From: an uncultured Nitrospira sp.
GTDB taxonomy: Bacteria; Nitrospirota; Nitrospiria; Nitrospirales; Nitrospiraceae
Length of the DNA stretch: 49,927 nt
Assembly: GCA_902500785.1 (NCBI GenBank)
Contig: CABVRW010000026.1
Span: forward strand, 1-49,927
Direction of reading: 5' to 3'
This document shows positions 34,075-48,706 of the stretch, one piece after another; the first letter of the stretch is position 1; each line of letters opens with the position of its first letter. The notes below the pieces were generated by a model. The model was not told the origin of the DNA. It ran no database searches and saw only the letters and a list, made by a program, of their open reading frames with translations. The translations under genes and the position numbers were made by a program.

Positions 34075-35316
34075 GTGGACATAGGGCTACTCCTCAGTTG
34101 CCGCACCCTCGCCTGTGCTCTCGCGATTGCGATGCTGGCCATGGCAGGCTGTCTCTCACCTATTGCTCTGCACGAAGCGGTGATCGAGTACGACCGCGCG
34201 GCGAATAGAATCCAATCGGACATGCTGTTGCTGAACATCGCGCGGGCACATCATTTTCAACCCCTGCACTTCACCGCCGTTTCCAGTGTGGCCGCCACCT
34301 TCGACTTTACCGCGAACATCGGCATCTTCCCCACGCAGGCGGAGCGTAACCCCTCGCCCGTCTCGCCGGGACTCGGCGTCAGCGTGGCCGAACGACCGAC
34401 CATTACCATCGTACCGATCGAGGGAGAGGATTTTACCCGTCGGATTCTGGCCCCGATGGACTCCTCCCGGCTCTCGGCGCTCTTTCAGCAGGGGGCCGAC
34501 TTCGGCCTCCTCTTTCGTCTCATGGCGAAGGAACTCGTCGTGAGCGGTTACGGTGAGTCCGAGTATCTGAGGAACGATCCGAGCGACCGCGAACAGTACG
34601 TGGCCTTTCGCCGGAGGGTCCTGCATCTCTCGTCCCTGAATCTCGCCCGCTCTCTCTATGTCGGCCCGATTGTGTTTGAAGACGCGCTGCCGATCTCTAT
34701 CCCAGTCAACTTGGCGCCGGGCGAGGGGCTGGCTGCGCTGGACAAGGTCATGTTAGCGCAAGAGAAGGGATACTATTGGAACAACCACGCCGGTGATCGC
34801 ACCGCCGTGCTGACAAAGCAGGTGATCGGCCGCATTGCGATCACCAACTACGACATCAGCAAACTGCCCAACGATGTCCGCCGTCGGCTGAACGAGGAAG
34901 CGAATCAGCTGCCGCAAAATGCCGTACTGGTCGATGTGCGTCCGGGGGACGAGGGCGGAGACTATCCCCTGCATGGGTATTTTGTCCTGAGAAGCTTCCA
35001 CGCCATGATGCGGTTCATTGCCAACGGCATCGACATTGCCCCTGAATTCCATGTCGAGAAGGATGGCCGAACCGGGGAAATTGCCAAAAATCCTCCATGG
35101 ACACTCCTGATCGAAGAGACGGACAAGCGACCTGATGAGGCAGCCTTCGCCATTCGCCATGAAAGCCATTGGTATTCGATTCGCCGGGCTCCCCAGGTGG
35201 AAGGACTGGTGTTCCCATGGAATCAGGAAGCGTTCCGTCTCCTGAATCATCTCTATCAGATGACCGTGACCGAGTTGCGAGATGTTCCCACTCCCGCAAT
35301 TACCATTGCCAAGTAA
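34075..35316 (+). CDS. Lipoprotein of unknown function
   Basis: A 413-residue protein with a signal peptide and lipobox AMAGC (Cys 26), so probably lipid-anchored. The mature part opens with YDRAANRIQSDMLLLNIARAHHFQPLHFT-like sequence; only short motifs such as LLLNIARAHH and PLHFTAVSS stand out. The rest is mixed alpha/beta with RRILAPMDSSRLSALFQQG and GYFVLRSFHAMMRFIANGI. I do not recognise the family. The start is GTG 34075 with GAGGGG very close upstream. It follows the TPR gene, and a hairpin just after its stop may end the lapA-TPR-lipoprotein operon. Confidence 0.75.
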   Translation: MDIGLLLSCRTLACALAIAMLAMAGCLSPIALHEAVIEYDRAANRIQSDMLLLNIARAHHFQPLHFTAVSSVAATFDFTANIGIFPTQAERNPSPVSPGLGVSVAERPTITIVPIEGEDFTRRILAPMDSSRLSALFQQGADFGLLFRLMAKELVVSGYGESEYLRNDPSDREQYVAFRRRVLHLSSLNLARSLYVGPIVFEDALPISIPVNLAPGEGLAALDKVMLAQEKGYYWNNHAGDRTAVLTKQVIGRIAITNYDISKLPNDVRRRLNEEANQLPQNAVLVDVRPGDEGGDYPLHGYFVLRSFHAMMRFIANGIDIAPEFHVEKDGRTGEIAKNPPWTLLIEETDKRPDEAAFAIRHESHWYSIRRAPQVEGLVFPWNQEAFRLLNHLYQMTVTELRDVPTPAITIAK

Positions 35317-35386: not shown

Positions 35387-35929
35387 ATGCGGAAACGTGT
35401 GATGCGATCCCTCTTCCCCATGGCCCTCTTGTGCGTAACGGTGTCATCCTTGACGATTCCAGCTCCCTGGGCAGCGGCGCAGCCGGCGGAAGGGCTCGCG
35501 TCAACCGGCACACCATATAAGACCGTGAAAGGAGAGTTGGTCCGGATCGAAGGACGCTATTATGTCCTCAAGGACGACCAGGGGAAGGAAATGCATCTGC
35601 TTATCGGTCCGGATACCCTGGCGCAGGGCTCGTTCAAAACGGGAGATCGCATCGAAGTCTCCGCCTCACCAATCGAGCATGCGATGTTTATCAAACCGCT
35701 CTCCCAGCGCCACGTCGACGTGGATTTGGAAGCAGCCACGCGCACCATCCGCGGCCGCCTCATGAAAATAGAAGGCCGATATTATGTCTTGAAGGATGCG
35801 ACGGGGCGTGAATTTCGTCTGCTCGTCACCGCGAGCACCGAAATGGTCGGGGCATTCAGACCGGGCGACGACCTTGAGGTCGCGGTGTCGCCGGTGGAGC
35901 ATGCCATGAGCATCCGGGCGAATCCTTGA
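35387..35929 (+). CDS. Exported protein with two copies of a small beta-rich repeat
   Basis: A 180-residue protein with a signal peptide ending near APWAA (about residue 30). Two tandem repeats follow, about 46-103 and 119-177. Each has the pattern G-x-L-x-x-I-E-G-R-Y-Y-V-L-K-D, a hydrophobic strand (HLLI or RLLV), F-x-x-G-D, and a closing SP-x-EHAM-x-I. ATG 35387 has GGAG upstream. The repeats resemble those of the broken gene at 39011, making the two paralogues. The compact strand pattern suggests a small beta-barrel or OB-like fold, which is inferred. The function is unknown. Confidence 0.8.
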   Translation: MRKRVMRSLFPMALLCVTVSSLTIPAPWAAAQPAEGLASTGTPYKTVKGELVRIEGRYYVLKDDQGKEMHLLIGPDTLAQGSFKTGDRIEVSASPIEHAMFIKPLSQRHVDVDLEAATRTIRGRLMKIEGRYYVLKDATGREFRLLVTASTEMVGAFRPGDDLEVAVSPVEHAMSIRANP

Positions 35930-35988
35930 GTCGTTGAAAGTATGAAGATGTCTGGCGGCTGACGTGCGCCGCGAGCAGCGTGCTCGAG

Positions 35989-37233
35989 TCAGGTCTGCCT
36001 GGTCTCCCGCCCATGCGGGCGCAACAGCCGCCCGATGGTCAGCCCCTGCACGAGTATCGAAAAGACGACCACGGCATAGGTGATGGTGACGATGGCATTC
36101 CGTTGGCCTCCCGGCGGAATCGACAGCGCTAAGGCCACCGAGATTCCTCCTCGCAACCCACCCCAGGTCAACACCGCAATCGTTCGCTCGCTGAATTCAC
36201 GGACCAGGCTGAAGAGCTTGATTTGCACGCCGACACTGAGAAATCGCGCCAAGAGGACGATCGGAATGGCCATGAGACCAGCGAGGACATAGGGGCGGTC
36301 CAGACTCAGGATCACCACTTCGAGGCCGATAAGGACGAACAGCACGGCGTTCAACAACTCATCCACCAATTCCCAAAAACTATCGAGATGTTCACGCGTC
36401 TTGTCGGACATGGCCCACCGCCGGCCATGATTGCCGATAAAGAGCCCGGCAACGACAACGACAATCGGACCCGACGTGTGCAGGGCATCCGCCAACGCAA
36501 ACCCTCCCAACACGAGAGCGAGGGTGATCAGAATCTCCACCTGATAGTTATCGACTGATTTCAGCATGCGGTAGGCGACATAGCCCAACACCCACCCCAG
36601 CAGGGCTCCACCGATGGCTTCCTCAACCAACAGCATGACGATGCCCGGCACGGTGATCGAACTTGGAGGGAGGAGACTCAACAACACGAGGAACACCACG
36701 ACACCGACACCGTCGTTAAAGAGCGACTCCCCGACGATTTTAATCTCCAGAGGCTTGGGCAGGCGAGCGTCTTTCAGGATGCCCATCACGGCGATGGGAT
36801 CGGTGGGTGCGATGAGGGCCCCGAACAGCAGGCAATAGATCAGCGGGAGATCAATCCCGGCGATATTGAACAGATAATATCCGAGGAATCCGGTGATGAG
36901 GGTCGACAGCACCACGCCGACGGACGCCAGTGCGCCGACCACCCACTTTTGGTCCAGCAATTCGGACAAATTGACGTGCAGCGCCCCCGCAAACAGCAGA
37001 CAACTCAACATGCCGTGCATGAGCGCTTCATTAAAATCGATCCCCATGATGAATTGTCTGGCCCCGTTTTCAATCCCGAGGTCCAGCTTCCCCAGCGCCA
37101 CGACCACGAGAGACATGACCAGCGAAATGACCATGAGTCCGATCGACTGGGGCAGTTTAAAGAACCGGTGATTCACATAGCTGAATACCGCTGCCAGGCA
37201 GATCAAGATGGTAATCGTATGGATAAGGCTCAT
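35989..37233 (-). CDS. Na+/H+ antiporter, CPA1 (NhaP-like)
   Basis: A 414-residue inner-membrane cation/proton antiporter with about 12 hydrophobic helices. The CPA1 ion-binding signatures are present: FGALIAPTDPIAVMGI with TDP at 144-146, and GESLFNDGVGVVVF with Asn-Asp at 173-174. The C-terminus is short, with no regulatory domain. It would exchange external H+ for internal Na+ or K+; specificity cannot be read from sequence. It is a single gene, divided from its neighbours by strand changes or gaps, about 5.5 kb from the N-type ATPase operon. Confidence 0.93.
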   Translation of the reverse strand: MSLIHTITILICLAAVFSYVNHRFFKLPQSIGLMVISLVMSLVVVALGKLDLGIENGARQFIMGIDFNEALMHGMLSCLLFAGALHVNLSELLDQKWVVGALASVGVVLSTLITGFLGYYLFNIAGIDLPLIYCLLFGALIAPTDPIAVMGILKDARLPKPLEIKIVGESLFNDGVGVVVFLVLLSLLPPSSITVPGIVMLLVEEAIGGALLGWVLGYVAYRMLKSVDNYQVEILITLALVLGGFALADALHTSGPIVVVVAGLFIGNHGRRWAMSDKTREHLDSFWELVDELLNAVLFVLIGLEVVILSLDRPYVLAGLMAIPIVLLARFLSVGVQIKLFSLVREFSERTIAVLTWGGLRGGISVALALSIPPGGQRNAIVTITYAVVVFSILVQGLTIGRLLRPHGRETRQT

Positions 37234-37572
37234 GATGACTCGCGCAATAGGTTCATTGACGTGTCGACGATGTCGAGTCGAGGGCCCCAGGCCGCTGAAA
37301 AGAACTCGCGCCCTCCAACGGAGAGCTCGTGAGCCATTTCTCTTTAGGCCTATGGGAGTCGCGTGTACTCTGAGAAGAACCGCCTCACCGCCTGGATTCC
37401 CACAGCATCTCTACGCGCGCGCCATAATGGAGGCGGAATGATCGCGCAATCACCTTATCAGTACGCTCGGCATACAGGGATCCTTCGAGACCGACGACAT
37501 GCGCTGCTCGTCTCGCGGCACTCCTGGACGGATCATGACACCCAGCGTCCTGTGGCACGTCGCGATCTAGGC
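37234..37572. other. Intergenic region upstream of the antiporter
   Basis: About 340 bp between two minus-strand genes. It should contain the antiporter promoter, but no good -10/-35 pair was recognised. A plus-strand frame of 62 codons starts at 37438 behind GGAGGCGGA and runs into the end of the binding-protein gene; its composition is not convincing and it is not called as a gene. Confidence 0.4.
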
Positions 37573-38406
37573 CTACCGATCGAGCGGAACATACAGATCG
37601 TCCAGCAGCGTTTGCCCTTCGGGTGAAAGGGCCAAGTCGAGGAAGGCTTGGGCGAGCGGCGAGGGGTGCTTGTTCGTCACAAGCACCACCGGACGCTTCA
37701 CGCGATATCGCCCTGATCGGATGGTGGATCGACCCGGCTCGACCCCGTCAACCAACAGGATCCGCACGGACATGCCGTACGTCACCGCATCCAGAGCCGC
37801 CTTCATGGAAAGATATCCGATTGCATCCAGTTGTCCCGACACGCGGCTTAGGACTTTCTGATCGGAACGGATCGGCTCGGCAGCCTCGGCCATGCGTCCG
37901 ACGATGCCAAGGGCCCGCTCGAATCCTTCGGTGAGATTCTGATCGTCAGGTCGCACCACCAGTCGTACCCTGCCTGCCGCCCTCTCATCAAGTTCCGACC
38001 AGTCACGAATCGATCCCGAGAACAGGGACGCCGCCTGTGGGATCGTCACGTCGGACACCGGATTGGAAAAATTCACGATCATGGCCAGCCCATCCCAGGC
38101 GATGGGAGTGGCCATCACATCGGAATCTTCTCTGCCTCCGACTGCGAGGTCGGCCTCGCCGGCCTTCACCATCTCACTGGTGCGAAAATTCCGATTCCAG
38201 AGAATGTCCACCGCAGTTCCGATGTGAGCCCTTTCAAAGGCTTGAGCCAGCTTCTCGATCACCGGCCGCTCCGGACCTCGGCCGACAACGGTAAGACTTC
38301 CCCGCAATTCATCCGCGAGGCCCTTCGATGTCAGGAAACTCGATATCAGCAGCACCGACCAGAGCCACACAACCGATGAAATGGCATGACGCCGAGATGT
38401 CTTCAT
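37573..38406 (-). CDS. PstS-like periplasmic substrate-binding protein
   Basis: A 277-residue protein with an N-terminal signal peptide (ending near SKGLA, about residue 31) and a PBP-like fold related to phosphate-binding PstS proteins. It has LTVVGRGPERPVIEKLAQAF, then EADLAVGGRED, VNFSNPVSDVTIPQAASLFSG, and QLDAIGYLSMKAAL. The usual phosphate-loop serines are not obvious, so the ligand may differ. No ABC permease or ATPase lies beside it, making it an orphan binding protein. ATG 38406 has GGGAGC upstream; the frame stays open 14 codons earlier. Confidence 0.78.
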   Translation of the reverse strand: MKTSRRHAISSVVWLWSVLLISSFLTSKGLADELRGSLTVVGRGPERPVIEKLAQAFERAHIGTAVDILWNRNFRTSEMVKAGEADLAVGGREDSDVMATPIAWDGLAMIVNFSNPVSDVTIPQAASLFSGSIRDWSELDERAAGRVRLVVRPDDQNLTEGFERALGIVGRMAEAAEPIRSDQKVLSRVSGQLDAIGYLSMKAALDAVTYGMSVRILLVDGVEPGRSTIRSGRYRVKRPVVLVTNKHPSPLAQAFLDLALSPEGQTLLDDLYVPLDR

Positions 38407-39010
38407 GTTCCGTATGCTCCCAGTCGACACAGTCACCAGTCGCTCCATGTCATAACGTTGAGGCGCCGACGTTTCTCATGGTCCGAACACAGGTCTGACG
38501 AGCATGAATCGCAGCGACACGATCATAGCATTAACCCAGCGGTGAGAGTGAGTCTAGGAACGATGGGCGCGGGCGCAGACCCTTTGAACAGCGCGCCCTA
38601 ACGACGACTGGCACATCGCCGGATCAAGACGAGCGCCACCGAGCCGAGCGCGCAACAGCGCACGGATTCGCAGGCATGTTTCGGGAAACACGTCCGTATA
38701 CCTCTCCTAACTCACAGGAATGCCGGAGCCCCTGTTTGCGCAAAAGAACCCTGCTTACCCTTCGCTGTCCTGTGGCAGCAAGGGACAGATATCCCTCTCA
38801 CCCTGCCCCAATATTCCCCATCCATCCCATGAACTCATCCCGTCAGTCCAAGACGAACCATGAGGGACGCTACAACGATCTGTTCGATATCGTTCGCGTT
38901 TTGCTTCAAGCGGCTGGGAGAACATGATCCTGGAACCGACGTGGCACTAAAGATGTACTTGGTCAATGGTCGGTCGCGTTGCGATCATCCCCTTTACGCG
39001 AGGAGGCGGT
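38407..39010. other. Intergenic region, no gene recognised
   Basis: About 600 bp separating the divergent binding-protein and repeat-protein genes. Short open frames exist on the plus strand but lack ribosome-binding sites and protein-like composition. No convincing promoter, RNA gene or large repeat was found, apart from the GAGGAGG ribosome-binding site at its right end. Confidence 0.4.
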
Positions 39011-39518
39011 ATGAAACGGCTCATCACCCTATTCATGTCTGCGCTGCTCATTGGCATCGGAATCTCATCCCTTTCCTCCGCGGCAGGCTCCAAGCTCATC
39101 GAAGGAGATATTCTGAAAATTGACGGAGAGTACTACACGGTCCACGACAAAGCCGGCCATGACGTGCGCCTGCATGTCAACAAGAGCACGCACCTGGAAG
39201 GGTGCGTTCAAGGCGGGAGACAAGGTCGAAATCCACGCGACCGATAAGGGGCATGCCCGTTCGATCGTGCACTTGACTGCCGCCGGCAAGCTAGAAACCG
39301 CTGGCTCGAAGGTCATCGAAGGCGACATTCTGAAAATCGACGGAGAATTCTATACGGTCCATGATATGGCCGGCCACGAAGTACGCCTGCATGTCAATAA
39401 GACCACGCACCTGGAGGGAGACGCCTTCAAGGTGGGGGATAAGGTCGAGGCCTATGCGACGGACAAGGGTCACGTCCGATATATGTACCATCTCGCTGAG
39501 ATGACTCCGGCTCCGTAG
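39011..39518 (+). pseudogene. Two-repeat exported protein broken by a frameshift
   Basis: A gene with an excellent start (GAGGAGGCGGT before ATG 39011) and a signal peptide (MKRLITLFMSALLIGIG, cleavage near SSAAG). It encodes two similar repeats: KLIEGDILKIDGEYYTVHD onward, and KVIEGDILKIDGEFYTVHD onward. The first frame goes out of register after GGG at 39200-39202, where CTGGAAGGG runs straight into TGCGTTCAAG, and stops at 39247. The correct sequence continues in another frame to the stop at 39518. Compared with the second repeat (LEGDAFKVGDKVE), two bases are missing between 39202 and 39203. Restoring them would give about 169 residues. This may be a real mutation or an assembly error. 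Confidence 0.85.
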
Positions 39519-39721
39519 GATGCCGATAGCCATGAGCAGTCTCACTGCGACGGTACCCTGGCAGGTGTGATGACGAGCGGCGTCGAGCTGAAGTGACTCC
39601 CTGATGCGGGTTGCTTCCGGTAATGCGGACGAGCTGATCACCTGAAACACAGGCCTGTCCGACCGACTGCTCGTGAGACGTTACGCGAGAACGAATGAAG
39701 GCGAATGCAAGAGGAGGCCGT

Positions 39722-40018
39722 ATGACCAGTGAGGAAAAAGCGCAAAAGATCACTCAGTGGATCGACCCGGAAGAACGGGTGACGGTACATTTTCTCGACG
39801 CACGAGATCTCAATGCGGAAGTGACAGGGTGTACCGAGCAGCTGGTTGACCTCGCAATCGAAACCCATGTGCCGTTTATGCAGCAACGGATCTCGATTCC
39901 ATTGAGCCGCACGGAAGTCTCGGAGGATCTCGCACATTACACGCGCGACCCTGAGCGACCTCTCAAGCGGCAGCGATTGATGTTGGTCGTCAACGAGAAA
40001 CGGCCGGCCATCATCTAG
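39722..40018 (+). CDS. 98-residue protein of unknown function
   Basis: A small soluble protein with a strong ribosome-binding site (GGAGG) 4 nt upstream of ATG 39722. It begins MTSEEKAQKITQWIDPEERV, then has a beta-rich middle (VTVHFLDARDLNAEV, LVDLAIETHVPF, QQRISIPLS) and a charged C-terminus with LMLVVNEKRP. The strand pattern is reminiscent of a small regulatory beta domain, but no PilZ RxxxR motif is visible and I do not recognise the family. It stands between the broken repeat gene and the glucan phosphorylase gene, 92 bp upstream of the latter. Confidence 0.7.
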   Translation: MTSEEKAQKITQWIDPEERVTVHFLDARDLNAEVTGCTEQLVDLAIETHVPFMQQRISIPLSRTEVSEDLAHYTRDPERPLKRQRLMLVVNEKRPAII

Positions 40019-40110: not shown

Positions 40111-44667
<4,557 letters not shown>

Positions 44668-44675
<8 letters not shown>

Positions 44676-45009
44676 GGAGCCACCGAGGGACAACGTGAAA
44701 AAAAGCGCGCCCACCCTGGCCCGGCAGGTCGGCACGAAGGCGGCGCGCAAGCTCAAAGCGCAACGTCACTCCGAGCGGACCATCTGGTTCGGCTTGGGCA
44801 TGATGGGGCTCATCGGCTGGTCGGTGGTGGTTCCGACGCTGCTCGGCGCAGCGCTCGGCATCTGGCTGGACCGAGCCTATCCCGGACGACAGTCCTGGAC
44901 GCTCACGCTGCTCTTCCTCGGTCTGATCATCGGCTGCGTGAATGCATGGCATTGGGTCGCCAAGGAAGGCAGGGAAATACGGGCGGAACAGGAGAATCAC
45001 GATGCATGA
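44668..45009 (+). CDS. atpQ: N-ATPase accessory membrane protein AtpQ (AtpI-like)
   Basis: A 113-residue protein with a basic N-terminus (RQVGTKAARKLKAQRH) and two membrane helices: WFGLGMMGLIGWSVVVPTLL, and WTLTLLFLGLIIGCVNAWHW. The sequence GAALGIWLDRAYPG lies between them. It resembles AtpI, which assists c-ring assembly in ordinary F-type operons. AtpQ is one of two extra membrane proteins that mark N-type ATPases. ATG 44668 overlaps the atpC stop but lacks a ribosome-binding site; GTG 44695 has GAGGGA upstream and is the main alternative. Confidence 0.88.
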
Positions 45010-45313
45010 CATGTGGAATTTGGTTCCGGCGCTCCTGGCGGGTCTGTTGCTCGGAGCGATATTTTTCGGCGGCCTGTGGTGGACCATTCGCCAAGGCCTC
45101 TCGTCGCCCCAACCGGCTGCGTGGTTTTTCGGGAGCCTGCTGCTGCGGATGGGCTTGGCCGTGACTGGATTGTATCTGGTTTCCGGCGGTCAAATGGAAC
45201 GGTTGTTGGTATGCCTCTGCGGGTTTGCTCTGGGACGGTGGATGGTGACTCGCATCACTCGAGTGGAGGCCAACCGAGTCCCTCCGGCAGGGGAGGTCGG
45301 CCGTGCGTCTTAG
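45002..45313 (+). CDS. atpR: N-ATPase accessory membrane protein AtpR
   Basis: A 103-residue protein with three predicted membrane helices: LVPALLAGLLLGAIFFGGLWW, AAWFFGSLLLRMGLAVTGLYLV, and LLVCLCGFALGRWMVTR. Helix 2 carries an Arg inside the membrane span (LLLRMG) and helix 3 a second one (GRWM), a feature described for AtpR and proposed to contact the c-ring carboxylates. AGGAG lies 7 nt upstream of ATG 45002. It overlaps atpQ by 8 bp and atpB by 11 bp. Confidence 0.88.
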   Translation: MHDMWNLVPALLAGLLLGAIFFGGLWWTIRQGLSSPQPAAWFFGSLLLRMGLAVTGLYLVSGGQMERLLVCLCGFALGRWMVTRITRVEANRVPPAGEVGRAS

Positions 45314-45992
45314 CCCTGACGAAATGATCTTCTGGCAACAGGGGTTCCTGAAGCTGAACGCCACCATTGTGTTCACCTGGGGACTGATGCTCGCACTGGC
45401 AGTCGGCTCGAAATTGATCACCCGCAATCTTTCCATGGATCTGACACGTTCTCGCTGGCAAAACGTGTTGGAAATCCTCGTCCTCGCGATCGAGAAACAA
45501 ATCAAAGAAGTCGGCCTGCGCCGGCCGGATCGATATCTGACGTTCCTCGGCACATTATTTTTGTTCGTGGGCATGGCCAGCCTCTCCACCGTCATACCCG
45601 GCTACGAACCACCGACCGGCTCGCTCTCGACTACCGCGGCCCTCGCGCTGTGCGTGTTCGTGGCCGTGCCGTTCTTTGGGATCAAGGAGCAAGGGATGGG
45701 TGGCTACCTCCGGTCTTATGCGGAGCCGACCGCCATCATGCTGCCGTTTAACATCATCAGCGAACTATCGCGTACGCTCGCCCTGGCCATTCGTCTGTTC
45801 GGCAACATGATGAGCGGCGCGATGATTCTCGCCATTCTGCTCACCATCACGCCGTTTTTCTTTCCGATCGTCATGACGGCGCTCGGTCTGCTCACGGGGA
45901 TGGTACAGGCCTATATTTTCAGCATCCTCGCCGCGGTGTACATTGCGGCCGCTACGCGAGTCCGTGAATCCACGCCGGAACTCGAGACGTAA
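45303..45992 (+). CDS. atpB: N-ATPase subunit a
   Basis: A 229-residue ion-channel subunit a with five to six membrane helices. The essential arginine of the ion path is in SRTLALAIRLFGNMMSG, the hallmark helix of subunit a, followed by GMVQAYIFSILAAVYIAAA. The start is GTG 45303, behind GGGGAGG six bases upstream. The N-terminal PDEMIFWQQGFLKLNATIVFTW is typical of the N-type form. It overlaps the end of atpR. Confidence 0.93.
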   Translation: MRLSPDEMIFWQQGFLKLNATIVFTWGLMLALAVGSKLITRNLSMDLTRSRWQNVLEILVLAIEKQIKEVGLRRPDRYLTFLGTLFLFVGMASLSTVIPGYEPPTGSLSTTAALALCVFVAVPFFGIKEQGMGGYLRSYAEPTAIMLPFNIISELSRTLALAIRLFGNMMSGAMILAILLTITPFFFPIVMTALGLLTGMVQAYIFSILAAVYIAAATRVRESTPELET

Positions 45993-46028
45993 GCTTCAAC
46001 ATGCAGGACGACAACCAAAGGAGCCCCC

Positions 46029-46310
46029 ATGGATAGCATGACCCTGATCGCCGTGGCATCCATCATCACCGCCGGCATCACCACCGGTTTCGGCACGATG
46101 GCGCCGGCGCTGGCGGAAGGACGGGCGGTCGCCTCGGCCCTCAGTTCGCTGGCGCAGCAACCGGACGCCTCCGCCACCATCACCCGGACGTTATTTGTCG
46201 GGCTCGCGATGATCGAGTCCACAGCCATCTACTGCTTTGTGGTCTCGATGATTCTGATTTTCGCCAACCCGTTCTGGAATCATTTCATCGGTCAGGCCGC
46301 GGGGAAATAA
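46029..46310 (+). CDS. atpE: N-ATPase subunit c with two membrane glutamates
   Basis: A 93-residue hairpin proteolipid that forms the rotor ring. Helix 1 contains APALAEGRAV with Glu 30, the polar loop is AQQPDA, and helix 2 has MIESTAIYCF with Glu 63, Ser 64 and Tyr 68. In the Na+-type c subunit of Ilyobacter tartaricus the ligands are Gln 32, Glu 65 and Ser 66 with Tyr 70; here the Gln position is Glu. Two carboxylates per site are typical of N-type c subunits. Na+ coupling is suggested by Glu-Ser-x-x-x-Tyr, but an N-type ring of Burkholderia was shown to use H+, so the ion is not settled. AAAGGAG lies upstream. Confidence 0.95.
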   Translation: MDSMTLIAVASIITAGITTGFGTMAPALAEGRAVASALSSLAQQPDASATITRTLFVGLAMIESTAIYCFVVSMILIFANPFWNHFIGQAAGK

Positions 46311-46313
46311 CCG

Positions 46314-47144
46314 ATGCTCATCGATTGGTTCACCGTCGGGGCCCAGGTGCTGAACTTTCTCCTCCTGGTGTGGCTGATGAAGCGCTTTTTGTATAAGCCC
46401 ATCCTCCAGGCCATCGACGAGCGAGAGAAGCGAATCGCCGCACAAGTCGCGGACGCCCACACAATCAAGGCCGAAGCCCAGAGAGAGCGGGACGAGTTCC
46501 GGCGGAAGAACGAATCGTTCGATCAGGAGCGCGCTGCCCGCTTGAACAAAGCCATGGACGAAACCAACGCCGAACGTCACCGCCTTCTCGACGGGGCCCG
46601 GCAGGAGGCGGACGGCGCGCGCGCCAATTGGCAGGAAGCATTGCGCGGCGAGCACCGGAATTTGAAACAAGACCTCACCCGTCGAGTGGGGGAGGAAGTC
46701 TTTTCAATTGCGCGAAAGACGCTGGCTGATCTTGCCACAACCGCTCTCGAAGAACGTGTAGGCGAGGTATTTATACGCCGCTTGCGAGCGATGGACGGCC
46801 GGACAAAAGACGAACTCGCGGCCACGCTTCGCACCGCGTCTACTCCCGCTGTGGTTCGTAGCGCCTTCGCCCTGCCAGCGGAGCAACGCGCGGCGATACA
46901 GCATGCGCTGAACGAAACCTTCTCCGCCGACGTTCGCTTGCAGTTCGAGATCAAGTCGGAGCTGGTCAGCGGGATCGAACTCATCACGAACGGACATAAG
47001 CTGGCATGGAGCATCGCAGATTATCTGGCATCGCTGGAACAGCGCGTCGGGGAGCTTCTCAAAGAGAAGGATCAGACTGATGCTACCGTCGAGCCTGCGC
47101 TCCACCCAAACGGCGAATCGCAGGCTCACACAACGAGCCCATGA
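46314..47144 (+). CDS. atpF: N-ATPase subunit b with delta-like C-terminal region
   Basis: A 276-residue stator subunit, longer than an ordinary b subunit (about 156-170). One N-terminal membrane helix ([22 protein letters not shown]) is followed by a long charged coiled coil to about residue 165. The C-terminal third (about 185-245) contains [17 protein letters not shown] and [24 protein letters not shown], resembling the end of delta/OSCP subunits. The operon lacks a separate delta gene, so this extension probably supplies the link to the F1 head (inferred). The stop overlaps atpA as ATGA. Confidence 0.9.
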
Positions 47145-48706
47145 GCATGAAGTCTGAGAGCCTCCAGCAGATGTTCGAAAATGCGTTGGCCGACATCCGG
47201 CAAGTGCGGGACGCATTCACCCCGACACTGAGCCCGCAGGAAGTGGGGAAGATCACCAGTGTGACCACAGGCATTGCCAAAGTGTCAGGCCTCCCCGGCG
47301 TGGGATTCGAAGAGGTGCTGAAATTTCCCGGCAATGTCTACGGCATCGCCTTCAATGTCGATGAGGACGAAATCGGTGCCGTGCTCCTGGGTGACTATTG
47401 GCAGCTGCATGCGGGCGATGAAGTCGAGCGCAGGGGACACGTCATGGACGTGCCGGTGTCCGACGGGTTGATCGGGCGAGTCGTCACTCCCCTGGGACGC
47501 CCCCTGGACGGCCGTGGGCCGGTGACCTCCACCAAGCGACTGCCTATCGAACGTCCCGCACCGTCCATCATGAATCGCGCGCCCGTCACGGTGCCGTTAC
47601 AAACCGGCATCAAGGTCATTGATGCGCTCATTCCGATCGGCCGCGGCCAGCGTGAGTTGATCTTGGGCGACCGTCAGACGGGCAAGACGGCCATTGCGTT
47701 GGACACGATCGTGAACCAGCGCGGACAGAATGTGCTGTGCGTCTATTGCGCCATCGGCCAGCGCGCCTCCGGCGTGGCCAAAGTCGTGGCGGCCCTTCGC
47801 GACCAAGGCGCGATGGAATACACCATCGTCGTCGTGACGGAAGGCAATGACCCGCCGGGGCTTTCCTATATCGCCCCGTACGCCGCAACCAGTATCGCGG
47901 AATATTTCATGGAGCAAGGACGCGATGTGCTGGTCGTATATGACGATCTCACCCATCACGCGCGCGCTTATCGCGAACTGTCCTTACTGTTGCGCCGTCC
48001 CCCGGGCCGCGAGGCGTTTCCCGGCGACATCTTTTACATCCACTCGCGTCTTCTGGAGCGAGCTACACACTTGGGCAACGAATTCGGCGGCGGCTCGCTG
48101 ACGGCCCTGCCCATTATCGAAACGGAGGCGCAAAACATCTCCGCCTATATTCCGACCAACCTGATCTCCATCACGGACGGCCAGATCTATCTCTCCCCCT
48201 CGCTCTTCGAATTGGGCGTGTTGCCTGCAGTCGATGTCGGGCAATCCGTATCCCGCGTCGGGGGGAAAGCCCAGCGGTCGGCCTACCGGGCGGTGGCGGG
48301 GGATCTCAAGCTGGCCTATGCGCAGTTCGAGGAGTTGGAAACCTTCGCCCGGTTCGGTGCCAGGCTGGATGATGACACTCGAAAGATCATCGAACATGGG
48401 CGGCGAATCCGTGCCTGCCTGAAGCAACCGGAATTCGCTCCGGTGTCCGTGCCCGCCCAAATCGCCATTCTGCTCGCACTGACCGGGGAACTATTTGACA
48501 GTGTGCCGATGGACCGGATGACGGACGCCGAGCATGCGGTGCATGAAGCGGCGGCGAACATCCCGGCGGAGGTGTGCGCGCGATTCGAATCCGCCACGAA
48601 ATTGAACGACAAAGATCGCCGGACCATTATCGAGATCGCCCGCAGTTCGCTCGCACCCTTCCAACTCACTACGCCATCCGAGGGAAGAGGCCGGAGAAAC
48701 CCATGA
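47141..48706 (+). CDS. atpA: N-ATPase alpha subunit
   Basis: A 521-residue alpha subunit, the regulatory partner of beta in the F1 head. Walker A GDRQTGKT is at 176-183. [44 protein letters not shown] and the signature [17 protein letters not shown] are intact. ATG 47141 overlaps the atpF stop (ATGA); a second ATG two codons later is also possible. Its stop overlaps atpG as ATGA. Confidence 0.96.

Follow-up and report, generated by a model that had tools for sequence, protein, structure and literature searches.

What are the two small proteins, each built from two copies of a ~60-residue unit, that are encoded at positions 35387–39518 of a contig from an uncultured Nitrospira sp. (CABVRW010000026.1 of assembly GCA_902500785.1; 49,927 nucleotides, hereafter the window), and what might they do in the cell? 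A sequence-only reading of the window had regarded them as exported proteins carrying four copies of a repeat in 4 kb, and had suggested an ion-related role from the antiporter and the binding protein encoded between them. As described below, the units constitute a large, lineage-expanded Nitrospirota family, unnamed within the literature searched, whose members are predicted to be small barrels of the oligonucleotide/oligosaccharide-binding (OB) fold and may serve in periplasmic binding under stress. The features of the two genes are as follows.

35387–35929, + strand: gene 1, intact, encoding a predicted two-unit secreted protein of 180 aa (ATG at 35387, one frame, stop included)
35387–35479, + strand: signal peptide of gene 1, residues 1–31 (hydrophobic N-terminus, boundary set by eye)
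35519–35704, + strand: OB unit 1a (profile match)
35741–35917, + strand: OB unit 1b (profile match; CusF fold match with Z 10.8, model residues 85–148)
39011–39518, + strand: gene 2, encoding a predicted secreted protein of two units; as assembled, it has a frameshift at ~39200–39204
39095–39275 (about), + strand: OB unit 2a, spread over two frames (profile match)
39309–39497, + strand: OB unit 2b, intact, with the His18/His23 pair (profile match; modelled)

Predicted fold and sequence relations of the unit

The AlphaFold2 model of unit 2b (mean predicted local distance difference test score, pLDDT, of 94.4) consists of strands at residues 2–11, 14–19, 24–28, 34–36, 45–50, and 55–61. CusF was its best PDB match in a Foldseek search (E 8.8e-4), and was superposed by VIA-align with a Z-score of 10.5 (root-mean-square deviation, 1.4 Å; 60 residues aligned), as against 8.8 for the next non-CusF entry and 8.8 and below for unrelated OB folds; by the guide of the structure-alignment tool, Z < 8 is background, and the CusF values lie above it. 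In the two-unit model of gene 1 (pLDDT 82.4, with the linker below 50), unit 1b was likewise closest to CusF (Z 10.8), followed by the next other protein at 8.7; the silver chaperone 8bxj scored 8.4 and SilB 8.1. An alignment in which the units of four proteins were misplaced (A4) was not used for modelling. These models predict the unit, with high confidence, to be a small OB-fold barrel of CusF topology.

The sequence link to CusF is, taken alone, weak. Among PDB sequences, CusF was retrieved at E 0.002 by the family profile A2 and at E 0.032 by the broad profile A7, and was not found by the narrow profile A5, while hhalign of the family against CusF-family sequences from other Nitrospirota gave a probability of 87 (P 3.7e-6, 42 columns). 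Neither the window proteins nor 29 diverse units of the family (20 units in one of the scans) reached the cut-off of any Pfam or NCBIfam model scanned. The nearest models all stayed below threshold: CusF (PF11604; 15.8 bits against a gathering cut-off of 27, with 2 of the 29 units at E ≤ 0.1), BOF/YgiW (NF033674; 13.2 against 35 bits for gene 1), PF04076 (3 of 29 units, best E 0.019), DUF5666 (PF18914; 16.8 against 27 bits), DUF5818 (PF19135; 22.9 against 27 bits), and ExtJ (NF040942; 19.1 against 52.5 bits, with weak matches in 8 of 29 members, best E 0.0032). A bona fide DUF5666 protein that passes the cut-off is encoded separately in the window genome, at another locus (C111). The assignment to a known domain, named in the earlier reading as refuting it, thus extends to a CusF-like predicted fold and to membership in no family among the models scanned, and the description of an uncharacterised domain, exported to judge by the hydrophobic N-termini seen by eye, held.

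Repeat history and the state of gene 2

When the 3′ part of gene 2 served as a single-sequence query, unit 2a was found at E 3.8e-19 and the units of gene 1 at E 7.6e-11 and 2.0e-6. Repeats are also visible in the DNA: the copies in gene 2 lie 217 nt apart and share 84% identity over 119 nt, and those in gene 1 lie 222 nt apart and share 71% identity over 56 nt. The similarity of the units is above chance, and by these comparisons the repeat is real; but the four copies in 4 kb are not the whole set, since the window genome has about 10 places that resemble the unit (10 at E ≤ 1 by the single-sequence search and 11 at E ≤ 0.001 by a profile), the others having been missed in the earlier reading.

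In a tree of the units, built on only 63 columns after the weak row L153 had been dropped, units 1a and 1b pair as sisters (support 100/96), and gene 1 groups with the copies of L095, L119, and L138 (97/89), and gene 2 with those of L101–L103 (99/82). Since an approximately unbiased (AU) test did not reject a topology in which the units of the two genes were held together (p-AU 0.103), we make no firm claim on whether genes 1 and 2 are sisters. The proposed duplication within genes is therefore borne out by the 1a/1b pair and the tandem DNA copies, whereas the tree does not show a duplication from one gene to the other, a joint grouping being allowed by the AU test. In L103 the two units are likewise sisters, but in L102, L109, and L113 they are not; tandem duplication therefore occurred repeatedly, or units were exchanged after it.

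Both genes were expected to encode a signal peptide and two units, and both do have a hydrophobic N-terminus and two units; gene 2, however, is broken in unit 2a by a frameshift that had been overlooked. Its ATG at 39011 is preceded by a ribosome-binding-site-like gaggagg (39000–39006), and the frame from this ATG covers the first half of unit 2a and stops at 39247, while the similarity of unit 2a resumes at ~39204 in a second frame (39120–39518) with its stop at 39518; the 217-nt spacing of the DNA copies is no multiple of three. In the nearest genome (G023, Nitrospira sp. isolate RBC_NOB1, contig L100), gene 2 has neither signal peptide nor unit 2a, which is damage of a different kind from that of the window copy. 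Between the same two genomes, the ratio of nonsynonymous to synonymous substitution rates (dN/dS) is 0.083 for the 3′ part of gene 2, 0.109 for the antiporter, and 0.303 for the binding protein. A pseudogene under relaxed selection was considered for gene 2 and rejected, as the value of its 3′ part is below that of the binding protein. Selection would thus have acted until recently, with the damage being recent or an assembly error, and gene 2 appears to have been recently lost or damaged in the window lineage, or misassembled in the window contig. An intact two-unit orthologue is present in L103 upstream of the same phosphorylase (75.6% identity); there, only the downstream phosphorylase and an ATPase-like gene are kept, and the antiporter is not. 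Gene 1 is kept at 94% identity in the nearest genome, with a dN/dS of 0.137.

Distribution and genomic neighbourhoods

Matches to gene 2 were found by the single-sequence search in 28 of 29 congeneric genomes. Of 148 Nitrospirota genomes, 60 had matches to profile A2 (E 0.001); 32 of the 148 are coded as belonging to the family of the window genome, and 30 of these had matches. Because this profile contains the window units, its E-values for them are not independent. The proteins have one, two, or three units. One three-unit member, a single 329-residue frame, lies at C2:3259584-3260411 of genome G156. Two peptide patterns, which reach near relatives only because they are conserved ones, were compared with the genomes of 84,980 species and gave 39 loci, 38 of them in records named Nitrospira or Nitrospirae/Nitrospiraceae. 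The remaining locus (L105) is in a record named Nitrosospira and encodes a protein nearly identical to that of Nitrospira L106; it may be a misbinned or misplaced contig. A single-unit query retrieved nothing related from plasmids or phages at E 0.01, and viral contigs gave no relatives either.

The two window genes lie, as had been stated, on either side of two minus-strand genes, which are identified by their PF00999 and PBP_like_2 matches and lie outside the repeat family.

35989–37233, − strand: CPA1-type Na+/H+ antiporter (PF00999, E 1.2e-59; TIGR00831 below cut-off)
37573–38448, − strand: PstS-like binding protein (PF12849, PBP_like_2, E 2.4e-19; TIGR02136, E 2.2e-28, below cut-off)

The gene order of the locus is the same in the nearest genome, and promoter and terminator scans gave no more matches than in shuffled sequence. 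Upstream of gene 1, a protein of 413 aa (34075–35316) is strongly conserved (dN/dS 0.076 against the nearest genome) and matched nothing in Pfam or NCBIfam at the thresholds applied. A frame of 107 aa (39695–40018) that lies between gene 2 and the phosphorylase, also present in the nearest genome, gave no family in the Pfam and NCBIfam scans. Downstream of the phosphorylase, an F/N-type ATPase operon (42737–48706) with two ATP-synt_ab genes, ATPase_gene1, ATP-synt_A, and ATP-synt_B fused with OSCP is likely to encode an N-type, ion-translocating ATPase.

The suggestion that copies cluster with ion-transport genes, and that an ion-related role follows from the neighbours, found no support: over the 29 congeneric genomes, 4 of 80 family genes are within 10 kb of a PF00999 gene, all four being genes 1 and 2 of the window locus in two sister genomes, and the search gave nothing beyond this locus. 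One copy in genome G054 (L190) adjoins an NhaA-type antiporter as well as an amylase-family enzyme; other copies have trehalose-phosphate-synthase-type genes (L193) or YflT (L102) as neighbours. In two different genomes, at L184 (C65 of the window genome) and L188, a family gene is near split genes of a resistance-nodulation-division (RND) pump and a ModA-type binding protein.

The family tends instead to lie near general-stress genes. Among the matches listed, 10 of 126 family genes are within 5 kb of a CsbD or BON gene, as against 1.0 expected by random placing, the ten being spread over 7 genomes; the family genes counted are profile A2 matches down to E 2.2e-8, with 16 weaker listed ones set aside, and the CsbD and BON genes are from those of the 148 genomes that hold units, most multi-domain genes being represented by one match. 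The CsbD, BON/OsmY-like, YflT, and Crp-type neighbours were confirmed by Pfam, with the OsmY model itself below cut-off.

Possible roles and known counterparts

Based on the predicted fold and these neighbourhoods, we consider that the family may function as periplasmic stress or binding proteins in the manner of YgiW/YdeI/SipA, with a probability of about 0.5. SipA, YgiW, and YdeI are periplasmic OB proteins that contribute to survival of cadmium and peroxide and bind porins or peptides, according to PMC6370654. By analogy, the proteins, exported as their hydrophobic N-termini suggest, would each present two small CusF-topology barrels with a flexible linker between them; the barrels may bind a small ligand, a peptide, or an envelope partner in the periplasm, and such binding would act under envelope, osmotic, or metal stress, while the numbers of copies and units would change through duplication and loss. 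Several points weigh against this assignment. The common OB fold does not fix a function, and the fold match to YgiW (1nnx; Z 7.4 and 7.8) is in the OB background, with the BOF and stress_OB_fold models below cut-off. Among the matches listed, 116 of the 126 family genes are without a CsbD or BON neighbour at this 5-kb distance, and no such gene was present among the window proteins scanned. Moreover, such neighbours had already been noticed before enrichment was tested for, two of the ten cases (G111 C8 and G114 C17) being known beforehand, and the genomes are related, with three of the ten in one genome (G054), so that a Poisson P for the enrichment is not a true probability.

The same barrels may instead be a structural or an oligosaccharide- or peptide-binding module of the cell envelope without a stress role. 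OB folds commonly bind oligomers, the tandem units on low-confidence linkers suggest avidity, and glucan phosphorylase and trehalose-type enzymes are beside some copies; however, glycines and turn residues make up most of the conserved positions, with no obvious binding-groove signature, and the enrichment near CsbD/BON also weighs against this alternative, which is rather doubtful. An accessory function for the neighbouring antiporter or binding protein is very unlikely, even though the gene order is conserved in the nearest genome, a Na+-type ATPase operon follows downstream, and one other copy is beside the NhaA antiporter: the proximity to PF00999 is confined to the window locus, the family genes are on the strand opposite to both neighbours, and the gene 2 orthologue of L103 is found without the antiporter.

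A further candidate role, of low probability, is that the units, at least those of the gene 2 type, are CusF-like metal chaperones that pass copper, zinc, or a similar ion in the periplasm, with a His pair in place of His and Met. The metal ligands of CusF are a His, a Trp, and two Met residues, and the motif is visible in the CusF-family sequences of other Nitrospirota as a loop of H-GPIKxFG-W-xx-M-T-M. The correspondence of residues is drawn from a HMMER alignment of the adjoining RxF/RxH strand, not from a structural alignment; on this alignment, His18 and His23, which occur together in 14 of 109 distinct units including gene 2 (all 14 also having His28 and His55), fall on the CusF His and first-Met positions. 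Such a pair in a subset of units, with CusF as the top fold match, keeps a chaperone conceivable, as do the absence of PF11604 matches in all 32 same-family genomes among the 148 searched and the two copies near split RND pump genes. According to PMC13374858, almost all nitrifiers encode CusCBA and 0–30.8% encode CusF. Against a chaperone, the corresponding loop of the family is ~6 residues shorter and does not keep the H-W-M-M set, Met being absent from the first-Met position (23) in all 109 units and present at the second-Met position (25) in 17 of them. Positions 18 and 23 are most commonly both Lys (30 of 109) and otherwise varied, gene 1 having Lys18 with Lys or Arg23; since they flank the hairpin turn, their co-variation may be plain strand pairing. 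The RND genes near the two copies match multidrug and CusA/CzcA models alike, below cut-offs. More speculative still is the idea that units of the gene 2 type arose from the CusF fold as a His-based offshoot and replace CusF in Nitrospira-family bacteria as tandem two-site periplasmic chaperones for an oxidised or divalent metal, with the niche of the lineage set partly by copper.

The protein kind itself, a small periplasmic OB barrel, is ordinary; the family is unnamed and expanded. Nitrospira-type bacteria are central nitrifiers, and nearly all genomes of the genus searched have the family in several copies. The predicted fold, together with a testable role in periplasmic stress binding, possibly of metal, would turn these hypothetical proteins into a defined family, and suggests that the CusF barrel can persist through loss or exchange of its copper site.

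Among known systems, CusF and its relatives (PF11604; PDB 2vb2 and 1zeq; including SilF and the C-terminal domain of SilB) share with the units the small periplasmic OB barrel and remote profile similarity, whereas the units have the shorter loop without the Trp and Met ligands, are often two or three per protein, and, among the window neighbours scanned, are not beside CusCBA. ExtJ, a selenite/tellurite operon protein of Geobacter, is related through weak profile matches that are far under the cut-off, and no ext operon was seen in the loci read. DUF5666, DUF5818, and DUF3006 (PF11213) are secreted domains that are likewise small, OB-like, and marked by a GD motif; the family matches them weakly, below the cut-offs. 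The BOF proteins YgiW/YdeI/SipA (PF04076, NF033674; PDB 1nnx) resemble the family in being small exported OB domains with a link to stress tolerance and in the weak profile matches of a few members; the units described here differ in being arranged in tandem, in scoring below all cut-offs, and in having been found here in Nitrospirota.

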